Below, in pieces: positions 15,143-29,621 of a stretch of 32,853 nucleotides of DNA. Source of the DNA: a virus. Made by a program: the position numbers and the translations under genes. The stretch is from IMG/VR virus record IMGVR_UViG_3300025767_000075, positions 1 to 32,853 of that record; one strand, written 5' to 3'. The notes under the pieces are model-generated. The model ran no database searches and had not been told where the DNA came from. It was given only the letters and a program-made list of their open reading frames with translations. The first letter of the stretch is position 1. Each line of letters opens with the position of its first letter.

Positions 15143-16651
15143 CTACTGCGCAAAGTTGTCTACGTTTTCAGTTACAGAAGGACTAGAGCTAGCTGATCTT
15201 CCAAGCTTAGATGGGTTTGGAGAAGAATATCCTGCATCTAGTTTACCTTCAGCAATCTGAGTTGCCGTAAAGTCAGTATTGTTTCTATTGTTATTATCTC
15301 TCATCTTAGATCTCACCTCAGAAGAAGTCAACTGTCTATCCGCTACACCACCTGTTGCTTTAGATCTGACAAGACCTTCGGACATAGCATTGTTAGGATC
15401 TACTTTAACCTTTTGAATACCAAAGCTAGACTGCTGATATGTAGTTGCAACAGCAGCATTTGGAATTGCCGTTGCTTTGATATCATCAGGAAGTATGTCT
15501 GTATCGATAGCATTGTTTGTGATAGGTGCTCCTGGGGCACCTACATTACCTGCTGAACCTGGACCTGTGTCCGGATCAGAATACAGCTGGTGTCTAGACT
15601 GTCGTGCTTCTTCTGCGACACCATCTAAATCCCCATGAAATGTTGGGCTTGTCATACTATTACTTGCCACAATATCACCAGTCACTTCGACACGTACAGC
15701 ACGAATTGTATCAACGTTAATAGTACCTGATCCACCTTCGCCATCACCTAGCCATAATGTATTACCTAAATGGTGGTTATATGAATATAGTACAATGTTT
15801 TCACCGCCAAATGTACCGACATCGCCAAAGACCGATAAATCTGTTGCATGAATATTTGTATTAGGTGACGTCATGTTCTGCTGTGTCTCTGATGTAATAC
15901 GCTGAGATCCTGAGGCAAAGACTCCCATACTACCTTCGCATGCGATTTCCATATTACCTTTAACAGCTTGTGTACTTCCGGCAAGAATTATCTCTGATTT
16001 CGATTTGTTTATTGTGTTTGAGTAGTGACCCTTGACTGTATTACCATAGTTCTTTTCAACAGTAGTACGTTTACCGCCATCAACTTGTTGAACGATATCA
16101 CCTGATATAACTTGATTTAAGTTACCACCGACATTCATATTGTAATCACCAGCAACATCAACGTTCAGATTTCCTTGGTATGTCATATGAGCATTGCCTT
16201 CAACGACAACGTGTGCATCATTACCAGTACTTACAAGCATATCATTTATAGAACTAAGGTACACTGTACCATCTGGTTTTATCTCTATACCTGCACCTGA
16301 ATGATGACGAATCATCATACGCTCATTACCTAGTGTATCGTCCATCTCAATGATGTGACCACCTGGTGTTTCCCACACAGTATTGTGTGGATACTGCGGT
16401 AAAGGAACAGCTGCATTTTCTTCAGGAGTACCAGTACGGGTCTTTTGTAATGTAGGAATACCGCCATTTGTTGCGAGATCATTTCTTTTTGCAGCCCTTG
16501 CAGCACGGTTAATAGACGACTGATATGAGTAATCAACACGTGGAAAAACTCCGGACGGATCTTGAAACCCTGTCGGAAATACTCCTTGAGTATAAATTTG
16601 TTGACCGAAAATCTGTTCTCGGTTTTGTAGGTCGTCATTATCTGTTGTCAT
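15143..16651 (-). CDS. 5: Tail spike beta-helix protein, C-terminal half of gp5
   Basis: A 502-residue protein matching only the C-terminal part of T4 gp5. Residues about 93-135 carry the gp5/VgrG junction: WETPGGHIIEMDDT, then NERMMIRHHSGAGIEI, then PDGTVYLSS. After it, about 145-260, come gp5-style octapeptide repeats with V-x-G spacing (HVVVEGNAH, NVDVAGDY, NVGGNLNQVISGD, TVKGHY), which form the trimeric triple-stranded beta-helix needle. There is no OB domain and no lysozyme; both are on another gene upstream. The last 150 residues are Asn/Asp/Ser-rich and low in complexity. T4 gp5 is cut between lysozyme and helix after assembly; here the two parts are separate genes from the start. Its ATG overlaps the amidase stop (ATGA). 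Confidence 0.85.
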   Translation of the reverse strand: MTTDNDDLQNREQIFGQQIYTQGVFPTGFQDPSGVFPRVDYSYQSSINRAARAAKRNDLATNGGIPTLQKTRTGTPEENAAVPLPQYPHNTVWETPGGHIIEMDDTLGNERMMIRHHSGAGIEIKPDGTVYLSSINDMLVSTGNDAHVVVEGNAHMTYQGNLNVDVAGDYNMNVGGNLNQVISGDIVQQVDGGKRTTVEKNYGNTVKGHYSNTINKSKSEIILAGSTQAVKGNMEIACEGSMGVFASGSQRITSETQQNMTSPNTNIHATDLSVFGDVGTFGGENIVLYSYNHHLGNTLWLGDGEGGSGTINVDTIRAVRVEVTGDIVASNSMTSPTFHGDLDGVAEEARQSRHQLYSDPDTGPGSAGNVGAPGAPITNNAIDTDILPDDIKATAIPNAAVATTYQQSSFGIQKVKVDPNNAMSEGLVRSKATGGVADRQLTSSEVRSKMRDNNNRNNTDFTATQIAEGKLDAGYSSPNPSKLGRSASSSPSVTENVDNFAQ

Positions 16652-18204
16652 GCTGTTGCACTCGCTCTGTATGTTTGTAATTCAGCCACGGTTAATGGTT
16701 GAGATGTTGCGCTACTAACATTCTTTTTACCAAAGTTTGTAAATACATAATTTGCCACACTAAAGCCTGGATCTATTTTTTGTGATGGATCAGTATCCAT
16801 ATGGCCAAATGCCTGTCCTCCTGGAAATGCTTTATAGAATGTAGCCATGAATCTTTTAAACGCAACGTTCTGTGCAGCAGTAAACGAAGAAGATCCTGTA
16901 GGTGAGTTAGATCCATTACCTGTACTTGGAACAGTATATCCACCAACAAACGATACACCTATGCTTTGATTATTGTGACCGTTTGCCTGCGCATGCGCTC
17001 CAGCATAGTTAATAGGTCTACCGCGTTCTATTGTACCGTCTCTTCGAATTACATAATGATACCCACAACCCGACCATCCTCGGGCCTGGTGCCATGAGTG
17101 TACATCCTCTGCACCAATGTCCTGATCTATATATGTTCCAGTCCAGTGCACTACAACTTCAGTTATATCCCTTGTTGCAGATACAAAATCAGCTTCTAGT
17201 TCTTCTGTTCCGGCCACTGTTGTAAACTGATATGGAATACTGCTATTTCCTGTGCCGGAAGTTCCTGACCCGTATCTATTTGATGGTGTAAATTGGCCTT
17301 CCCATCCAACAGCGTTAGATCCAATTTCAAACGTAGGTAAATTAGTAGATGCTGTATATGTTACTCGTGTAGTAAACTTAGTATCAATACCATAGATTCT
17401 ATCTTCTATTACGCCTATTGGTAAATCAGAACTAGCTGCTGTTAATGCTATAGCCGCAGCGTAATTTCCGTTGGATATAAGAGATATAATATTGTTTCGC
17501 GCTATATCAGTAAGCCCACCGCCCGTAAGATCATTAATAACAAATCCTATCGGTGTGTCAATTGTATCAACAATTGCCTGTAATATTGGCTTAATCGCCG
17601 TACCGATAGTAAGATCTACTTTTTTATTAAACTCTGCAATAATAGGATTAATGATTGCAGAGATATCTCGGTTAAACGCCTGAGTCATAAATCCCTGAAG
17701 ATTTCCACTTTGTGCTGCACTGACAGCGCCTACAATCTGTGCTAATGGATTTGACGAAGCACTTCCAAGTAATCCTTGCATACCATTTGCAGACGATGCA
17801 CCATAATAGCTAAGTAAGAATCCTTTTGCAGGACTTGATCCCGTTAGTACACCAAGGGTACCTAATACAGTAAGCACATCAGTAAAATTTGCATTGCCAG
17901 AAGCTACACCGCTAAATGCTCCTTCTATCTCTGTAATCAAATCAGCTGCAAATCCACTTACACCTTCGGTTAGCTTAGCAATACCGATACCAAATAACTG
18001 ATTGCCGCCTTGACCTGGATAATCTTGAAGTTGGTTTACCGACATAAATCCGTTTAACGTTTGGCCAACTAGCTGACCTAGCGGAGATGTTATCGCAGCA
18101 TTATATTCACCTGTTAGCGAAGGTACAGCATTTTGAAAAGGCTGAGTAGATAAACGCTGGTCAAGAGTTGACATGTAGCTATTTGTTTTTGTAAACGTAA
18201 CCAT
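16648..18204 (-). CDS. Hub-associated N-acetylmuramoyl-L-alanine amidase (Amidase_2 type)
   Basis: A 518-residue protein. Residues about 345-490 are an Amidase_2/PGRP-type domain: ITEVVVHWTGTY (Zn ligand His353), GCGYHYVIRRDGTIERGRP, AGAHAQANGHNNQSIGVSF, and GHMDTDPSQKIDPGF (His468, Lys476 and Asp478, matching the H...K-x-D-P-G ending of AmpD-type enzymes). This cuts the bond between N-acetylmuramate and L-Ala in peptidoglycan. The first 330 residues are Gly/Ala/Ser-rich with amphipathic segments, of unknown fold, and probably fix the enzyme to the tail. It lies between the two halves of gp5, with TAATG and ATGA overlaps at its ends, so translation is probably coupled. It could act in wall penetration or as an endolysin; the context favours penetration. 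Confidence 0.82.
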   Translation of the reverse strand: MVTFTKTNSYMSTLDQRLSTQPFQNAVPSLTGEYNAAITSPLGQLVGQTLNGFMSVNQLQDYPGQGGNQLFGIGIAKLTEGVSGFAADLITEIEGAFSGVASGNANFTDVLTVLGTLGVLTGSSPAKGFLLSYYGASSANGMQGLLGSASSNPLAQIVGAVSAAQSGNLQGFMTQAFNRDISAIINPIIAEFNKKVDLTIGTAIKPILQAIVDTIDTPIGFVINDLTGGGLTDIARNNIISLISNGNYAAAIALTAASSDLPIGVIEDRIYGIDTKFTTRVTYTASTNLPTFEIGSNAVGWEGQFTPSNRYGSGTSGTGNSSIPYQFTTVAGTEELEADFVSATRDITEVVVHWTGTYIDQDIGAEDVHSWHQARGWSGCGYHYVIRRDGTIERGRPINYAGAHAQANGHNNQSIGVSFVGGYTVPSTGNGSNSPTGSSSFTAAQNVAFKRFMATFYKAFPGGQAFGHMDTDPSQKIDPGFSVANYVFTNFGKKNVSSATSQPLTVAELQTYRASATA

Positions 18205-19103
18205 TATACAGCAGTTCCTTCAGTCAATTGTAATACTCTATATGCTTCTTGTATTCTCTTTTGTAAGTGTGCACCGCTACTTCTTTCGTACTGGCTGTCA
18301 AACACAAAAGCAGCTTGTTCTACAGTACTAGAACTTTTTAAATTAGTGTTAGCATTAACGTTTAAGTTGCCACTCTCGTTATCTGGATTATTTAATTCAT
18401 GCACGATAAAATTTAATTGATCGTTAAATGTGCTTTGTGACCAAGACTTTCCATATACTTGTTCAAATATAGCTCTGCGGCCTGGTCCCCATTGCGCAAT
18501 ACCTCTTGCATGTTTACCAGGGCCTTGGTCGTTATGAGCTACTGCCGAGAAGTTTAACTCTTCACCCTTATATCGTGACTCGACCATAAGGTTTCCTACA
18601 ACAGCTGCAGCTTGTTCTTTTGAGTAACCTTGATTTCGAAAGAACGTGTATGCTTCTGTAATTCTTTCTGAGTTAGTACCTAACGGAGCCTGATAATTGT
18701 TACTCTCAACACTTCCGTCTGTTCTTGCACCAGGATCCGCACTAGCTTCTTTACCAGCGGCACCTTCTTTCCATTGAGCATTTGCCAGTTGTTGTTCAGA
18801 AGGTATTTCTATTTTTGGCATCACTCCGACGACACATGGAGCCTGTGAACCTTTACCATCTAGGAATATTCCCATGACTTGTGCACCGGGCAAAAGCTGT
18901 GGGGTAATACCTATTCCAGAAGTACCACCGTTATTTGTTTGTAATACAGTTGCCCATGGCAAAGCTCCGGTAGGAATTTGCAGGTTGTCTCGTGAATGTA
19001 TGCCAAAGATTCTAACCTGAGCTCTACCCAATTCTAGCGGATCGAGCACGTTAACTACAACACCAATCCACCACCTGACGTTATCTCCATAAAATTCCAT
19101 CAT
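18204..19103 (-). CDS. 5: gp5 N-terminal half: OB-fold hub domain fused to phage tail lysozyme
   Basis: A 299-residue protein. Residues 8-100 match the T4 gp5 N-terminal OB domain: WWIGVVVNVLDPLELGRAQV, RIFGIHSRDN, IPTGALPWATVLQ, and GIFLDGKGSQAPCVVG. This part sits on the gp27 trimer. Residues about 145-295 are not T4-lysozyme-like. They fit the Phage_lysozyme2 (tail lysozyme) family: AAAVVGNLMVESRY with probable catalytic Glu175, and ARGIAQWGPGRRAIFEQVYG. There is no beta-helix; that is encoded two genes downstream. Two ATGs are adjacent; the first makes an ATGA overlap with the gp27-like gene. Predicted action: local cutting of the glycan strand as the tail tube passes the wall. Confidence 0.85.
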   Translation of the reverse strand: MMEFYGDNVRWWIGVVVNVLDPLELGRAQVRIFGIHSRDNLQIPTGALPWATVLQTNNGGTSGIGITPQLLPGAQVMGIFLDGKGSQAPCVVGVMPKIEIPSEQQLANAQWKEGAAGKEASADPGARTDGSVESNNYQAPLGTNSERITEAYTFFRNQGYSKEQAAAVVGNLMVESRYKGEELNFSAVAHNDQGPGKHARGIAQWGPGRRAIFEQVYGKSWSQSTFNDQLNFIVHELNNPDNESGNLNVNANTNLKSSSTVEQAAFVFDSQYERSSGAHLQKRIQEAYRVLQLTEGTAV

Positions 19104-24256: not shown

Positions 24257-24958
24257 ATGGCTTTACCAAAAATCAACGCGGCACCTAAATACGAAGCAAC
24301 GGTACCGTCGACAAAACAAGAAGTAAGATTTAGACCTTACCTTGTAAAGGAAGAAAAAGTTTTGATGTTGGCTATGGAGTCTGAGAACCAGGCTCAAGCA
24401 ATGAACGCAGTAGTTGATACAATTCTAGCGTGTGTGCAAGAGCCGATTGATAAAAGTGTGTTGACTACATTTGATGTGGAATATTTGTTTACACGAATTA
24501 GAGCAAAATCAGTAGGAGAAACTACAAAGATTGGACTTAAGTGTACGGAATGCGAACATCCTACGGAGACTATAGTTCCTATAGAAGATATTGTCATTGA
24601 AGTACCAGAAGTCGAGACCAAAGTTGAGGTTACAGATAATCTAAAGCTATCATTAAGATGGCCACGATATAACGATCTTGTAGACTTAGGAGCTATGGAA
24701 TCCACCACAGCTATGACATTTGCAATGGTTTCACGGTGTATTGAAGCAGTTGAAACTCCGGAAGAAAGAATTAATTTTAATGATGAAACAGAAGCTGATA
24801 AACTAGAATTTATTGAATCTTTAAGTGCAGAACAATTTGGAAAAATCCGGGACTTTATGGATAAGATGCCAACACTAAAGCATGAAATAGATTATAACTG
24901 TGAAAAATGTGGGCATGCTAATAATATAGTATTGCAGGGTATGAACGATTTTTTGTAA
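24257..24958 (+). CDS. 26: gp26 (T4 baseplate hub / probable tail assembly chaperone)
   Basis: A 233-residue protein of the T4_baseplate (gp26) family. Visible: VRFRPYLVKEEKVLMLAMES (24-43), FDVEYLFTRIRAKSVGE (72-88), two Cys pairs Cys96-x2-Cys99 and Cys215-x2-Cys218 that probably bind one zinc, and LRWPRYNDL. In T4, gp26 is needed for hub assembly. Here it lies directly before the tape measure, where most long-tailed phages keep their tail assembly chaperone. The gene ends GAT TTT TTG TAA, which includes a -1 slippery heptamer, and the -1 frame continues open for 63 codons. GAGGA precedes the ATG. Confidence 0.88.
   Translation: MALPKINAAPKYEATVPSTKQEVRFRPYLVKEEKVLMLAMESENQAQAMNAVVDTILACVQEPIDKSVLTTFDVEYLFTRIRAKSVGETTKIGLKCTECEHPTETIVPIEDIVIEVPEVETKVEVTDNLKLSLRWPRYNDLVDLGAMESTTAMTFAMVSRCIEAVETPEERINFNDETEADKLEFIESLSAEQFGKIRDFMDKMPTLKHEIDYNCEKCGHANNIVLQGMNDFL
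24949..24955 (+). promoter_or_regulatory. Candidate -1 ribosomal frameshift site
   Basis: T TTT TTG in the gp26 frame fits X XXY YYZ and sits directly before the gp26 stop. A weak stem is possible 11 bases downstream (24967-24972 with 24982-24987, with G-U pairs). Slippage would move ribosomes into the frame that ends at 25146. Confidence 0.65.
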
Positions 24959-25146
24959 TATGCCTTTCTCATGAATCTCTTGTGGGATATTTTAAAACGA
25001 ATTTCTCATTGATGCAAAATCATCATTATTCGTTAACTGAAATAGAAGAGATGATACCATGGGAGAGGGAAATATATTTGACGTTGCTTATCGAACATAT
25101 TAAAGAAGAAAACGAACGAGCTAAACAACAGAATACGGGTAGATAA
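24955..25146 (+). CDS. Minus-1-frame extension of gp26 (T-like tail chaperone segment; gp51 position)
   Basis: After slippage the ribosome would read GTA ATA TGC and on, adding 63 residues (about 296 in total). The added part is protein-like: CLSHESLVGYFKTNF, then SLTEIEEMIPWEREIYLTLL, then a charged helix ending KQQNTGR. The pattern of a His/Leu segment, an E-x2-x-I-P-W/F-E-R-E-I-Y motif and a charged tail recalls the T part of G/GT chaperones. A separate 44-codon ORF could start at ATG 25012, but no Shine-Dalgarno precedes it, and the frame is open all the way back to the slippery site. In T4, gene 51 follows 26, so this may correspond to gp51. Its stop touches the tape-measure ATG. Confidence 0.7.
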   Translation, partial: VICLSHESLVGYFKTNFSLMQNHHYSLTEIEEMIPWEREIYLTLLIEHIKEENERAKQQNTGR

Positions 25147-27624
25147 ATGGCCGACACCACGTTAACAGATCTTATAAAAATCATGCGTTCAGAAATGAAG
25201 CAGTCTGATGAAATAATCGAAACTCAAAAAGAGACGAAAGCATCTATTGACGCGTTGACCGCTGTATTCATGAAGAAGTTTAAACGAGAAGAACGTGGTG
25301 GTTTAGACAAACTAGAAGATAAAATAGAAGCTCCTAAATCTCAAACCGGTGGCTATGATATTAAACTGCCTGATCTTCCAGGTAAAGGTATGTTCGATAA
25401 CCTTATAGTTATGGGAGCTCGGTTACTAAGTACAATAAATGGTATTGCATTAGGTATTGCTGGAGTTGTAGCTGCATTTGCTGGTATACGTGGCTGGGAA
25501 TTAGATGCAATTAAAAACATAGAATCTATAGGGAAAAGATTAAAAGGATTATTTCCTGGAGCTATTGCTACAAAAATCGGCGATGCTATGGATCTTCTGA
25601 GAGTAAGCGTTGCTAAATTCTTTGGCATAGATCCCATGAATGGAAAACTTTTAGCGAATGGTTCTAGGGTTGGGCCAAAAGGATTTCTTCCTAAGGTGGC
25701 ATATGCAAAAGGCTTCACTCAAATAATAGGTGAAGCCTTTGATTTATTTAGATCAAGCATCTTGACAAAATTTGGTATTGATCCGGCAACCGGTAAAATG
25801 TTAGCATTAACAGGAGATTCTGCCAAAGATGCAACGCCCATAGCAAGAGTAATTGGTAGACTTGGAATACAACTAAGAAGCTTATTTAAGCCGGTGCGAG
25901 CTATGGCAAGTGCCTTAGGAGGTTTCTTTAAAGGCGACACATTTAAAGGTATATCAAAATTTGTTGGAGCAGGCGGTAAATTAATTCTTGCTGTGTTTAA
26001 GAAGGTTTTTTATCCTATCGGACTTGTGTTTTCTGCATTTGATGGAATTAAAGCTTTTATGGATAGCGATGCGCAAACCATAATAGGAAAACTAGGTGAT
26101 GGTGTTGGAGCCTTTGTCGGTGACTTTATTGGTGCACCATTTGATCTTTTAAAGTCAGGAATCAATTGGGTCTTTGACAAAGTATTTGGCGTAACACGAG
26201 ATGAAAACGGTAATGTCACTTCCCAAGGATGGGCAAGCTGGGCATCCACTAAAATGTCTGAGTTTAGTTTTGAGAAAGTAATAGGTAGTATTATTGCTGC
26301 GCCATGGAAAGTAATAGAAGCTGCATGGCTTTGGATAAAAGACTTATTCACAGATCCAGTTGGAACAATAAAGAAAAGCTGGGAAACACTTACAGGAGCA
26401 TTTACCAGCTTCGGAACTTTTATTTACGACAGCATGCTAAAGCCAGCATGGGACTGGGTTAGTGGAATATTCGCAGATCCAGTCGGAACAATAAAGAAAA
26501 GTTGGGAAACACTTACAGGAGCATATGCAAATTTTGGCTCTTTCATTTACGATAAGGTGCTTAAGCCAGCGTGGGATTGGGTTAGCGGAATATTTACGTG
26601 GCTAGACACTGATAAGCCTGAAGATTCTGAAGGTTGGTCAATATCAAAATTAGTTACAGGCGTATTTAAAAGTGTAAAAACGTTTCTTAGTGGAATGTTC
26701 TCTTGGACCAAGCCTAAAGATTCTGAAGATTCTGAAGGTTGGGGAGTATCAAAATTAGTTAAAGACGTATTTCAAAATGTAAAAACGTTTCTTAGTGATT
26801 TATTTACGTTTGACTCATCAAAAATAACTCTGGCAGACATTGCAGGTAAAGCAGTAGACATTTATATGATTGTTCCAAATCTAGTACTTAAGGCAGTCAC
26901 GGGAATAGGCAGCTGGTTAGCAGGGTTATTTGGATTTAAAGAAACTGAAGCGAAGCTAGAAGAAGCAGGCAAGTTTTCTATTAGTGAGTTAGCAATGAAA
27001 GCATTCAGTGGTGTCAAGAACTGGATTACAGAAAAATTCTCAGGTGAGATTAAAATAGGAAATTTTTCAACCAATATTGGCGATATCATAAAAAGCGTAG
27101 GAGACAGTCTTAGCTTAGTTAAAGATATATTAACTGCGACAGTTCAATATGAAATTACTCGTATTAGTAATGGTTTTAAAAATTCATTTGATCGCATTGC
27201 AAACTTTATCAACAACCTAGGCGATAATCTTTATATTATCGCATCAAAGAATTTACAATTTGAATTAGCTCCAATTGCTATCAAAAATCCTTTTACCGGT
27301 AATACTCTTGTCGAAATACCTGGATTTAAAGCTGGTGTTGGAGATGCAGAAACAAGAGCAGCTGCTCAGAGCAGAATAGATACAAGAACCACTTTATCTC
27401 AAAATAGAATTACGGCTCGTGAATCAGAAACATCTGCAGCCATGTGGGCCGTACAGGCCAAGCAAAATGAGTTAGCAGCTACCGTTCAAAACTTTGTTGT
27501 TAACAATATTAACAATAGTCAAACCAATGCTAACACAAACAATGCTAGAAGTTACGTTGCCACTGGCAGTACATCAGATACATTTGATCTAGTTGGCAGC
27601 GGCAACGTACAAGGTGCTTTTTAA
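25147..27624 (+). CDS. 29: Tape measure / baseplate hub protein gp29-like
   Basis: An 825-residue protein. It has a charged coiled-coil-like N-terminus (1-65), a hydrophobic segment at about 84-114 (Ala/Gly/Ile-rich), and long helical, repeat-containing central regions with hydrophobic stretches, ending in an Asn/Ser/Gln-rich tail. This is the usual build of tape measures, which set tail length and leave through the tube at infection. Internal repeats: a FGIDPxxGK unit near 155 and 210, a 41-residue unit twice in tandem (about 403-484), and a DSEGWxxSKLV unit twice (about 493 and 528). It begins right after the gp26 extension stop and ends against the gp32 stop. No recognisable lytic domain. 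Confidence 0.82.
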   Translation: MADTTLTDLIKIMRSEMKQSDEIIETQKETKASIDALTAVFMKKFKREERGGLDKLEDKIEAPKSQTGGYDIKLPDLPGKGMFDNLIVMGARLLSTINGIALGIAGVVAAFAGIRGWELDAIKNIESIGKRLKGLFPGAIATKIGDAMDLLRVSVAKFFGIDPMNGKLLANGSRVGPKGFLPKVAYAKGFTQIIGEAFDLFRSSILTKFGIDPATGKMLALTGDSAKDATPIARVIGRLGIQLRSLFKPVRAMASALGGFFKGDTFKGISKFVGAGGKLILAVFKKVFYPIGLVFSAFDGIKAFMDSDAQTIIGKLGDGVGAFVGDFIGAPFDLLKSGINWVFDKVFGVTRDENGNVTSQGWASWASTKMSEFSFEKVIGSIIAAPWKVIEAAWLWIKDLFTDPVGTIKKSWETLTGAFTSFGTFIYDSMLKPAWDWVSGIFADPVGTIKKSWETLTGAYANFGSFIYDKVLKPAWDWVSGIFTWLDTDKPEDSEGWSISKLVTGVFKSVKTFLSGMFSWTKPKDSEDSEGWGVSKLVKDVFQNVKTFLSDLFTFDSSKITLADIAGKAVDIYMIVPNLVLKAVTGIGSWLAGLFGFKETEAKLEEAGKFSISELAMKAFSGVKNWITEKFSGEIKIGNFSTNIGDIIKSVGDSLSLVKDILTATVQYEITRISNGFKNSFDRIANFINNLGDNLYIIASKNLQFELAPIAIKNPFTGNTLVEIPGFKAGVGDAETRAAAQSRIDTRTTLSQNRITARESETSAAMWAVQAKQNELAATVQNFVVNNINNSQTNANTNNARSYVATGSTSDTFDLVGSGNVQGAF
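25708..25740 (+). other. Perfect 11-bp inverted repeat within the tape measure
   Basis: AAAGGCTTCAC (25708-25718) is the exact reverse complement of GTGAAGCCTTT (25730-25740), with an 11-base loop. It codes for KGFTQIIGEAF between two FGIDP repeats. On the minus strand the stem is followed by TGC, with no long U-run; on the plus strand by GATTTATTTAG. Confidence 0.5.
26353..26598 (+). repeat. Tandem 123-bp repeat (41 codons, two copies) in the tape measure
   Basis: Copy 1 starts at 26353 and copy 2 at 26476. Each begins GATCCAGT and codes DPVGTIKKSWETLTGA, then a variable middle, then LKPAWDWVSGIF. The ends are nearly identical in DNA; the middles differ, mostly at third positions. Confidence 0.85.
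26623..26797 (+). repeat. Second in-frame repeat pair (105-bp period) in the tape measure
   Basis: About 70 matching bases start at 26623 and again at 26728, coding DSEGWxxSKLV followed by VFxxVKTFLS. The second copy is preceded by an extra GATTCTGAA, duplicating the DSE motif. Confidence 0.75.
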
Positions 27625-28604: not shown

Positions 28605-29621
28605 TTATTCAAAAACAATTTCTTTTTGTAAACTGTTTTGCTTATCTATCTCTTCAAACTGTTCACGTTTAATTGAGATAACTTGACATGCTTCAACAGA
28701 ACTACATGGATGACCTATCTCTGTAAATCTTCCTTGCTCTAGTTTTTGAATGAATTCTAATCTTTTTATAGAGTAATATATTTCACCCATTGTTTGATCG
28801 TATAAGTTACCTAGTACTAAATCATTATTATCGTCTAAACAACAGGCGTACCAATCTCCGTTTGGAGCAATGTATGATTGGATTTTAATTCTTTCTATCT
28901 GCGGACAACTTAGGTTTGACTTTTTAGTTACGCCTAACAATCCTTGTTTAGCTAAACTTCTCTCTGACCATAATCCTGGTTTGCTATGGTGTATTTCAAT
29001 ATGATCGGGGCAAAACTCTCTTAGCATATTTCTAGTTAAATCGAAATTGCTATATGCTACTGCTTCACCTTCTTTTACTTGATCTGGATTTTTTCCAGAA
29101 TATAGCTTAATAGTAGTTGCGTATTCAATTGCTGGCATCACCATTATATCAATCTTTATTGATGACTGATTTTCTGTATGTAGATCTATAAATGTTTTAA
29201 GTTGTTTAATAACACTTTTGAAACTAATCTTTTTAACTGCACGATAGGATGCTTCATCATGACCATCGACGTTCACGCCAACACAATCAATTAAATTTTC
29301 TTCTACCATTGCGGCAGATATTTTGCGTGACATTAACGCAAAATTGCTAAGAAAATTTATTTGTATATGAGGAATTTGCTTTCTAATATATCTTAAAATA
29401 TCTAAAAAGTCTTTATGATATACAGCCTCACCGTTTTCTGATATATGAATAGCTTTTAATTCTTTAAAAATGCCGTCTTTATCATCTTTTATTTCATCAA
29501 CTATCTTATAAACTAATTTGGTTTCCATATCAAAGTTATGTTTGGTGCCCCGTGATGTGGGACACCAGATGCACTTTGCATTACATCTATTGGACAGTGC
29601 TAGATTTACCTGTTTTAACAT
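28605..29621 (-). CDS. Radical SAM enzyme with SPASM/twitch-like C-terminus
   Basis: A 338-residue protein. Cys13-x3-Cys17-x2-Cys20 in LSNRCNAKCIWCPTSRG is the radical SAM [4Fe-4S] motif, and HISENGEAVYH (about 59-69) has the GE motif that contacts SAM. The C-terminus has Cys239, then 15 residues, Gly255-x4-Cys260, and Cys306-x5-Cys312, as in SPASM or twitch domains holding an extra iron-sulphur cluster. Such enzymes usually modify peptides, proteins or small metabolites through a 5'-deoxyadenosyl radical. The substrate here is unknown. It is the last gene of an operon with gp33 and a 58-residue basic protein whose end overlaps its start by 35 bases. RBS weak. It lies between gp33 and gp32, so it is an accessory insertion among replication and transcription genes. 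Confidence 0.85.
   Translation of the reverse strand: MLKQVNLALSNRCNAKCIWCPTSRGTKHNFDMETKLVYKIVDEIKDDKDGIFKELKAIHISENGEAVYHKDFLDILRYIRKQIPHIQINFLSNFALMSRKISAAMVEENLIDCVGVNVDGHDEASYRAVKKISFKSVIKQLKTFIDLHTENQSSIKIDIMVMPAIEYATTIKLYSGKNPDQVKEGEAVAYSNFDLTRNMLREFCPDHIEIHHSKPGLWSERSLAKQGLLGVTKKSNLSCPQIERIKIQSYIAPNGDWYACCLDDNNDLVLGNLYDQTMGEIYYSIKRLEFIQKLEQGRFTEIGHPCSSVEACQVISIKREQFEEIDKQNSLQKEIVFE

Follow-up and report, generated by a model that had tools for sequence, protein, structure and literature searches.

A tail assembly chaperone gene with a probable programmed −1 ribosomal frameshift in an uncultivated marine T4-type phage

In the viral record IMGVR_UViG_3300025767_000075 of IMG/VR (positions 1 to 32,853; these 32,853 nucleotides are referred to below as the window), gene 26 of a T4-type phage is followed by an open −1 frame and by a probable tape measure gene. 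The features at this locus are:

24257..24958, + strand: gp26 (233 aa), matched by the PF12322 and phrog_150 profiles
24935..24940, + strand: CAGGGT, a weak Shine-Dalgarno-like stretch where relatives usually carry GAGG(G/T)
24949..24955, + strand: slippery heptamer T_TTT_TTG, with T_TTT_TTN in frame in 168 of 170 dereplicated relatives
24956..24958, + strand: 0-frame stop codon TAA, immediately 3′ of the heptamer
24955..25146, + strand: −1 frame extension of 63 codons plus TAA, the predicted TAC-C domain (phrog_634 match, pN/pS and structure model)
24967..24987 (approximate extent), + strand: possible weak hairpin TTCTCATG/TGTGGGAT, 3′ of the heptamer
25147..27624, + strand: probable tape measure protein, 825 aa with W/F-rich internal repeats (from position and a weak match)

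The final codons of gp26 are GAT (24947), TTT, TTG and TAA (24956-24958), and T TTT TTG fits the X XXY YYZ rule at the coordinates given in a preliminary description of the window. Read in the −1 frame from 24955, translation would continue as V-I-C-L-S-H and onwards to a TAA at 25144-25146, and the ATG of the next gene stands at 25147, one base past this stop. The predicted fused product has 233+63 = 296 residues, with NDFLVICLSH across its junction; the open frame, the position of its stop and the length of about 296 residues had all been described correctly. Among the 9,766 codons in the genes of the window, T_TTT_TTN occurs in frame only twice; the second copy is followed by just 8 open −1 codons. 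A run of 63 open codons has P = 0.0097 under the local base composition.

The gp26 protein matched PF12322 at 4.9e-61 (206.6 bits against a curated cut-off of 24.5) and phrog_150 at 1.2e-61, over positions 5-232 of the 282 in that profile, and it contains zinc-ribbon-like CxxC pairs. AF2 models were made separately for gp26 and for the extension. The best match of the gp26 model (pLDDT 89) among 350,542 PDB chains was the HK97 tail assembly chaperone 2OB9, with a probability of 0.91 but an E value of 0.29, which is weak; 3FGX was likewise among its fold matches. Searching the PDB by sequence with gp26 and the extension gave no meaningful match. The extension itself matched phrog_634, “baseplate hub assembly catalyst” (that is, gp51), at 4.5e-28, while Pfam and NCBIfam returned nothing credible for it. 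Its model is all-helical (pLDDT 84), with helices from the first residues that could continue a short helix at the end of gp26. The PF12322 family, shared with T4 gp26 and gp51, and the weak HK97 fold match support the earlier proposal that gp26 is a tail assembly chaperone. Two forms with a common N-terminal domain would be encoded, gp26 alone and gp26 with the −1 extension, and their assignment as TAC-N (short form) and TAC-NC (long form) is supported.

IMG/VR yielded 80 loci in a first scan, and a poly-T site with an open −1 frame was visible in the 79 that were examined. Further scans and 17 records of annotated phages raised the total to 264 loci, which dereplication at more than 8% difference around the site reduced to 170. 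The end of gp26 carries T_TTT_TTN in frame in 168 of these 170, and the stop codon lies 0 or 1 codon past the heptamer in 165 of the 168. Every one of the 168 carriers has a −1 extension, which measures 56-69 codons in the 167 complete ones. The slippery site is found in Kyanoviridae, in Pelagibacter and Methylophilales phages and in Caulobacter phage Cr30, as well as in Pseudomonas phage pf16, Rhizobium RL2RES, Stenotrophomonas BUCT608, Aeromonas Ah1 and one KVP40-like Vibrio phage. In three Pelagibacter and Methylophilales phage loci (L082, L085 and L086), one or two additional small genes separate the extension from the tape measure gene, while the window has none.

Two of the 170 loci do not keep the heptamer in frame. 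In L261 an early stop interrupts gp26, and the protein is 99% identical to gp26 of the Pelagibacter phage HTVC008M; either a sequencing error or a broken gene would account for this stop. The other, the very distant Vibrio phage 1.255.O (L093, coordinates 1702-2594), reads TCA CTT TTT CGC TAA at the site, and the ATG of its gp51 overlaps the stop (TAATG), which makes it a candidate for a lineage where frameshifting was lost in favour of reinitiation.

Conservation of the site goes beyond what the protein would demand. With amino acids alone conserved and the codon usage of the same genes, 72.5 intact heptamers would be expected among the 168 relatives, where 168 were observed. In 100% of them the heptamer has TTT for Phe, against 52-88% in other conserved Phe columns, and the codon preceding this TTT ends in T without exception. 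The relatives, dereplicated as they are, remain related by descent, and a summed probability for the heptamer is not to be taken literally. Over 1,187 pairs, pN/pS of the extension was lowest in the −1 frame, at 0.23, with values of 0.99 for frame 0 and 2.5 for frame +1, and judged by these ratios the extension is under purifying selection in the −1 frame only.

Whether the −1 frame could instead be a separate small gene 51, at which ribosomes restart at or next to the gp26 stop (TAATG type), depends largely on its start codons. In the window, the −1 frame contains ATG at 25012 and 25051, GTG at 24982 and TTG at 25009, 25078 and 25084. The preliminary description had named the ATG at 25012 as the only internal one; it is indeed in frame, but so is the one at 25051, and neither lies upstream of the conserved FVICLSHES stretch, where no start codon is present and just an ATA is found. 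For 122 of the 168 relatives, the −1 frame lacks an ATG before codon 10 past the heptamer; 75 lack ATG, GTG and TTG alike upstream of the conserved core. No start codon is conserved. An ATG at or near the gp26 stop does occur in 39 of the 168, with TAATG or TGATG at the stop itself in S-CRM01, Cr30, RL2RES, BUCT608 and R10Z, yet the heptamer is kept in 39 of these 39. With a universal heptamer and an ATG that only some relatives have, reinitiation cannot serve as the general route, but may be an additional one. Public records could be cited in its favour, as every annotated record inspected leaves the two frames unjoined and nearly all give a separate gp51. The annotated gp51 starts, however, vary from phage to phage and often fall inside the conserved domain, cutting the LSH motif. 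In four records (L083, L086, L087 and L081; OQ984149, KC465899, KJ019088 and AJ630128), separate “gp51 / baseplate hub assembly catalyst” genes have internal or stop-adjacent starts, and these annotations mostly appear to be truncated −1 extensions. We therefore regard reinitiation in place of slippage as very unlikely at this locus. A less exclusive variant, with frameshifting giving TAC-NC and lineages of the TAATG type producing a free gp51 domain as well, finds some support in the roughly one quarter of relatives that have both the heptamer and a stop-codon ATG; the window's own lineage has no sign of it and the ATG is not conserved, and we consider it unlikely, though clearly less so than reinitiation alone.

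The long product could also arise if RNA polymerase rather than the ribosome slipped on the T run. Runs of six or more T do exist among these sites, but in the window and in relatives of the TTC and TTG types the run is six T only. A run of six is short for known transcriptional slippage. In addition, all 168 of 168 carriers have the site in one and the same phase to the 0 frame, and the spacing of the Shine-Dalgarno-like stretch fits ribosomal slippage; transcriptional slippage is, in our estimation, even less probable than reinitiation. As for a chance heptamer beside an untranslated open stretch, which AT-rich DNA might well provide, it is dismissed because of the conservation in 168 of 170 dereplicated relatives, which is decisive, and is further refuted by purifying selection and homology to T4 gp51, leaving it a practically negligible probability. 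The comparison of relatives, with the heptamer in 168 of 170 and the open −1 frame in 168 of 168, clearly favours the programmed −1 frameshift that had been proposed for the window. A destroyed heptamer together with a clear start codon, the finding named beforehand as speaking against it, was encountered in the very distant L093 only. On these sequence comparisons, gene 26 very probably encodes a tail assembly chaperone and undergoes programmed −1 ribosomal frameshifting.

Elements that may stimulate slippage were sought on both sides of the heptamer. GGAG, GAGG or AGGA ends 7-11 nt (nearly all 8-11) upstream of the heptamer in 64% of the 168 relatives, against 40% of synonymous shuffles. Where a Glu codon lies at this Shine-Dalgarno-like site it is GAG in 66 cases and GAA in 37, as compared with about 25% GAG elsewhere (p 1e-7 to 1e-11). 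On the downstream side, 30% of relatives have a hairpin that beats synonymous shuffles (p<0.05), compared with 7% and 16% for control stretches farther downstream, with striking ones in S-PM2, P-SSM2, S-CRM01 and Cr30. In the window no significant downstream structure was detected, the weak hairpin having a z of −0.07 against dinucleotide shuffles and a p of 0.40 against synonymous shuffles. A downstream RNA hairpin was accordingly rejected as a stimulator in the window for want of a signal, though it is clear in several relatives.

From the above we infer the slippage itself, its rate and the role in assembly. Most ribosomes would stop at the TAA at 24956 and release an abundant short form, TAC-N (gp26, 233 aa), while a minority, modest in rate, would slip by −1 on T_TTT_TTG right ahead of the stop codon to give the 296-residue long form. 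This TAC-NC (gp26-gp51) would carry a helical C-terminal domain in the role of lambda T. By analogy with lambda gpG/gpGT, many short and few long subunits may coat the tape measure protein encoded next, the C-terminal domain recruiting tail-tube or hub subunits, and both forms together would make the tape measure protein ready for assembly of the tube.

The product of 25147..27624 is probably this tape measure protein, as suggested by its position and a weak match. The same slot is annotated “tail tape measure” in HTVC008M and Cr30, and the protein shares 27% identity, across 241 aa, with the one that Melnitz has there; no family profile confirms this identity. Elsewhere in the window, on the minus strand, gp5-like tail lysozyme regions are seemingly split over neighbouring genes (15143-19103), with an amidase domain (phrog_822) between them at 16648-18204, and a region at 18204-19103 matches part of the tape measure family phrog_9570. 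Also on the minus strand, at 28605-29621, a Radical SAM domain protein adjoins a gene for a phage single-strand DNA binding protein.

It is worth considering how the two forms relate to T4 genes 26 and 51, which are homologous to the window's locus through PF12322 and phrog_150. T4 gp26 and gp51 both match PF12322 and are paralogues. T4 gp51 spans phrog_150 from 13 to 280 of 282, extension included, and T4 gp26 from 14 to 235; because of these spans, T4 gp51 corresponds to the whole fused product and gp26 to the short form. The earlier suggestion that the extension is the counterpart of T4 gp51 hence needs refinement: it holds for the C-terminal ~50 residues of gp51, whereas gp51 as a whole, with a gp26-like domain of its own, matches the whole fusion. 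Unlike the window, T4 has both forms as separate genes, which are neighbours and divergently transcribed (L084, 3803-5229), neither with the heptamer. No in-frame T_TTT_TTN was found in these genes of T4 (end and junction inspected), JSE, KP15 or Acj61. In a family tree the gp26s form one group and the gp51s another, on long branches that leave the root and the position of the duplication uncertain. In 2022, Vladimirov, Gautam and Davidson reportedly found frameshifting to be conserved across several groups of T4-like phages, with T4 itself relying on separate genes 26 and 51. Both T4 proteins have been described as hub assembly chaperones, gp51 being essential but of unknown function, required and yet absent from the final particle (PMC3004832). 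Our comparison lends independent support to the view, already published, that gp26 is the short and gp51 the long form of the chaperone.

Perhaps the whole family shares one frameshift cassette whose stimulators can be exchanged. Most lineages would have the Shine-Dalgarno-like GAGG about 10 nt ahead of the heptamer, some (S-PM2, P-SSM2, S-CRM01 and Cr30) strong hairpins lying a few to about 15 nt past it, and about a quarter an overlapping ATG that additionally yields a free gp51 domain; T4 would have replaced slippage by a duplicated gene pair. We offer this tentatively, as an idea that is doubtful but not far-fetched. If true, one could trace how a fixed protein ratio evolved through frameshift, dual and split-gene states.

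The arrangement recalls lambda gpG/gpGT, where a short chaperone with a −1 slippery site near its end is followed by an extension domain and then by the tape measure gene, as covered in review. The likeness is one of gene arrangement. The lambda slippery sequence differs from T_TTT_TTG. The TAC locus of Vandenendeviridae and Andersonviridae (phage Adele, PMC12846349) has a poly-T −1 site (GTTTTT) at the 3′ end of TAC-N; these are different phage families, likened to the window by site layout, and the Adele-type extension is elsewhere annotated as a hypothetical gene. The same source also treats poly-T −1 signals as known in TAC-N genes of T4-like phages. For T4-like tail assembly chaperones, frameshifting was already proposed by Vladimirov, Gautam and Davidson (2022, Virology 566:9-15). 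These chaperones reportedly belong to the same gene family; their TAC-N gene ends in a poly-T −1 site, the next frame encodes TAC-C, and the tape measure follows. The window is the same in kind as this class, of which it would be an uncultivated marine relative. The locus is thus, on good support, a new example and not a new phenomenon, the class having been published in 2022. Its comparison with relatives indicates that marine T4-type phages retain the frameshift, and that what is annotated as a separate gp51 gene in genomes of cyanophages and Pelagibacter phages is often a truncated reading of the frameshift extension.
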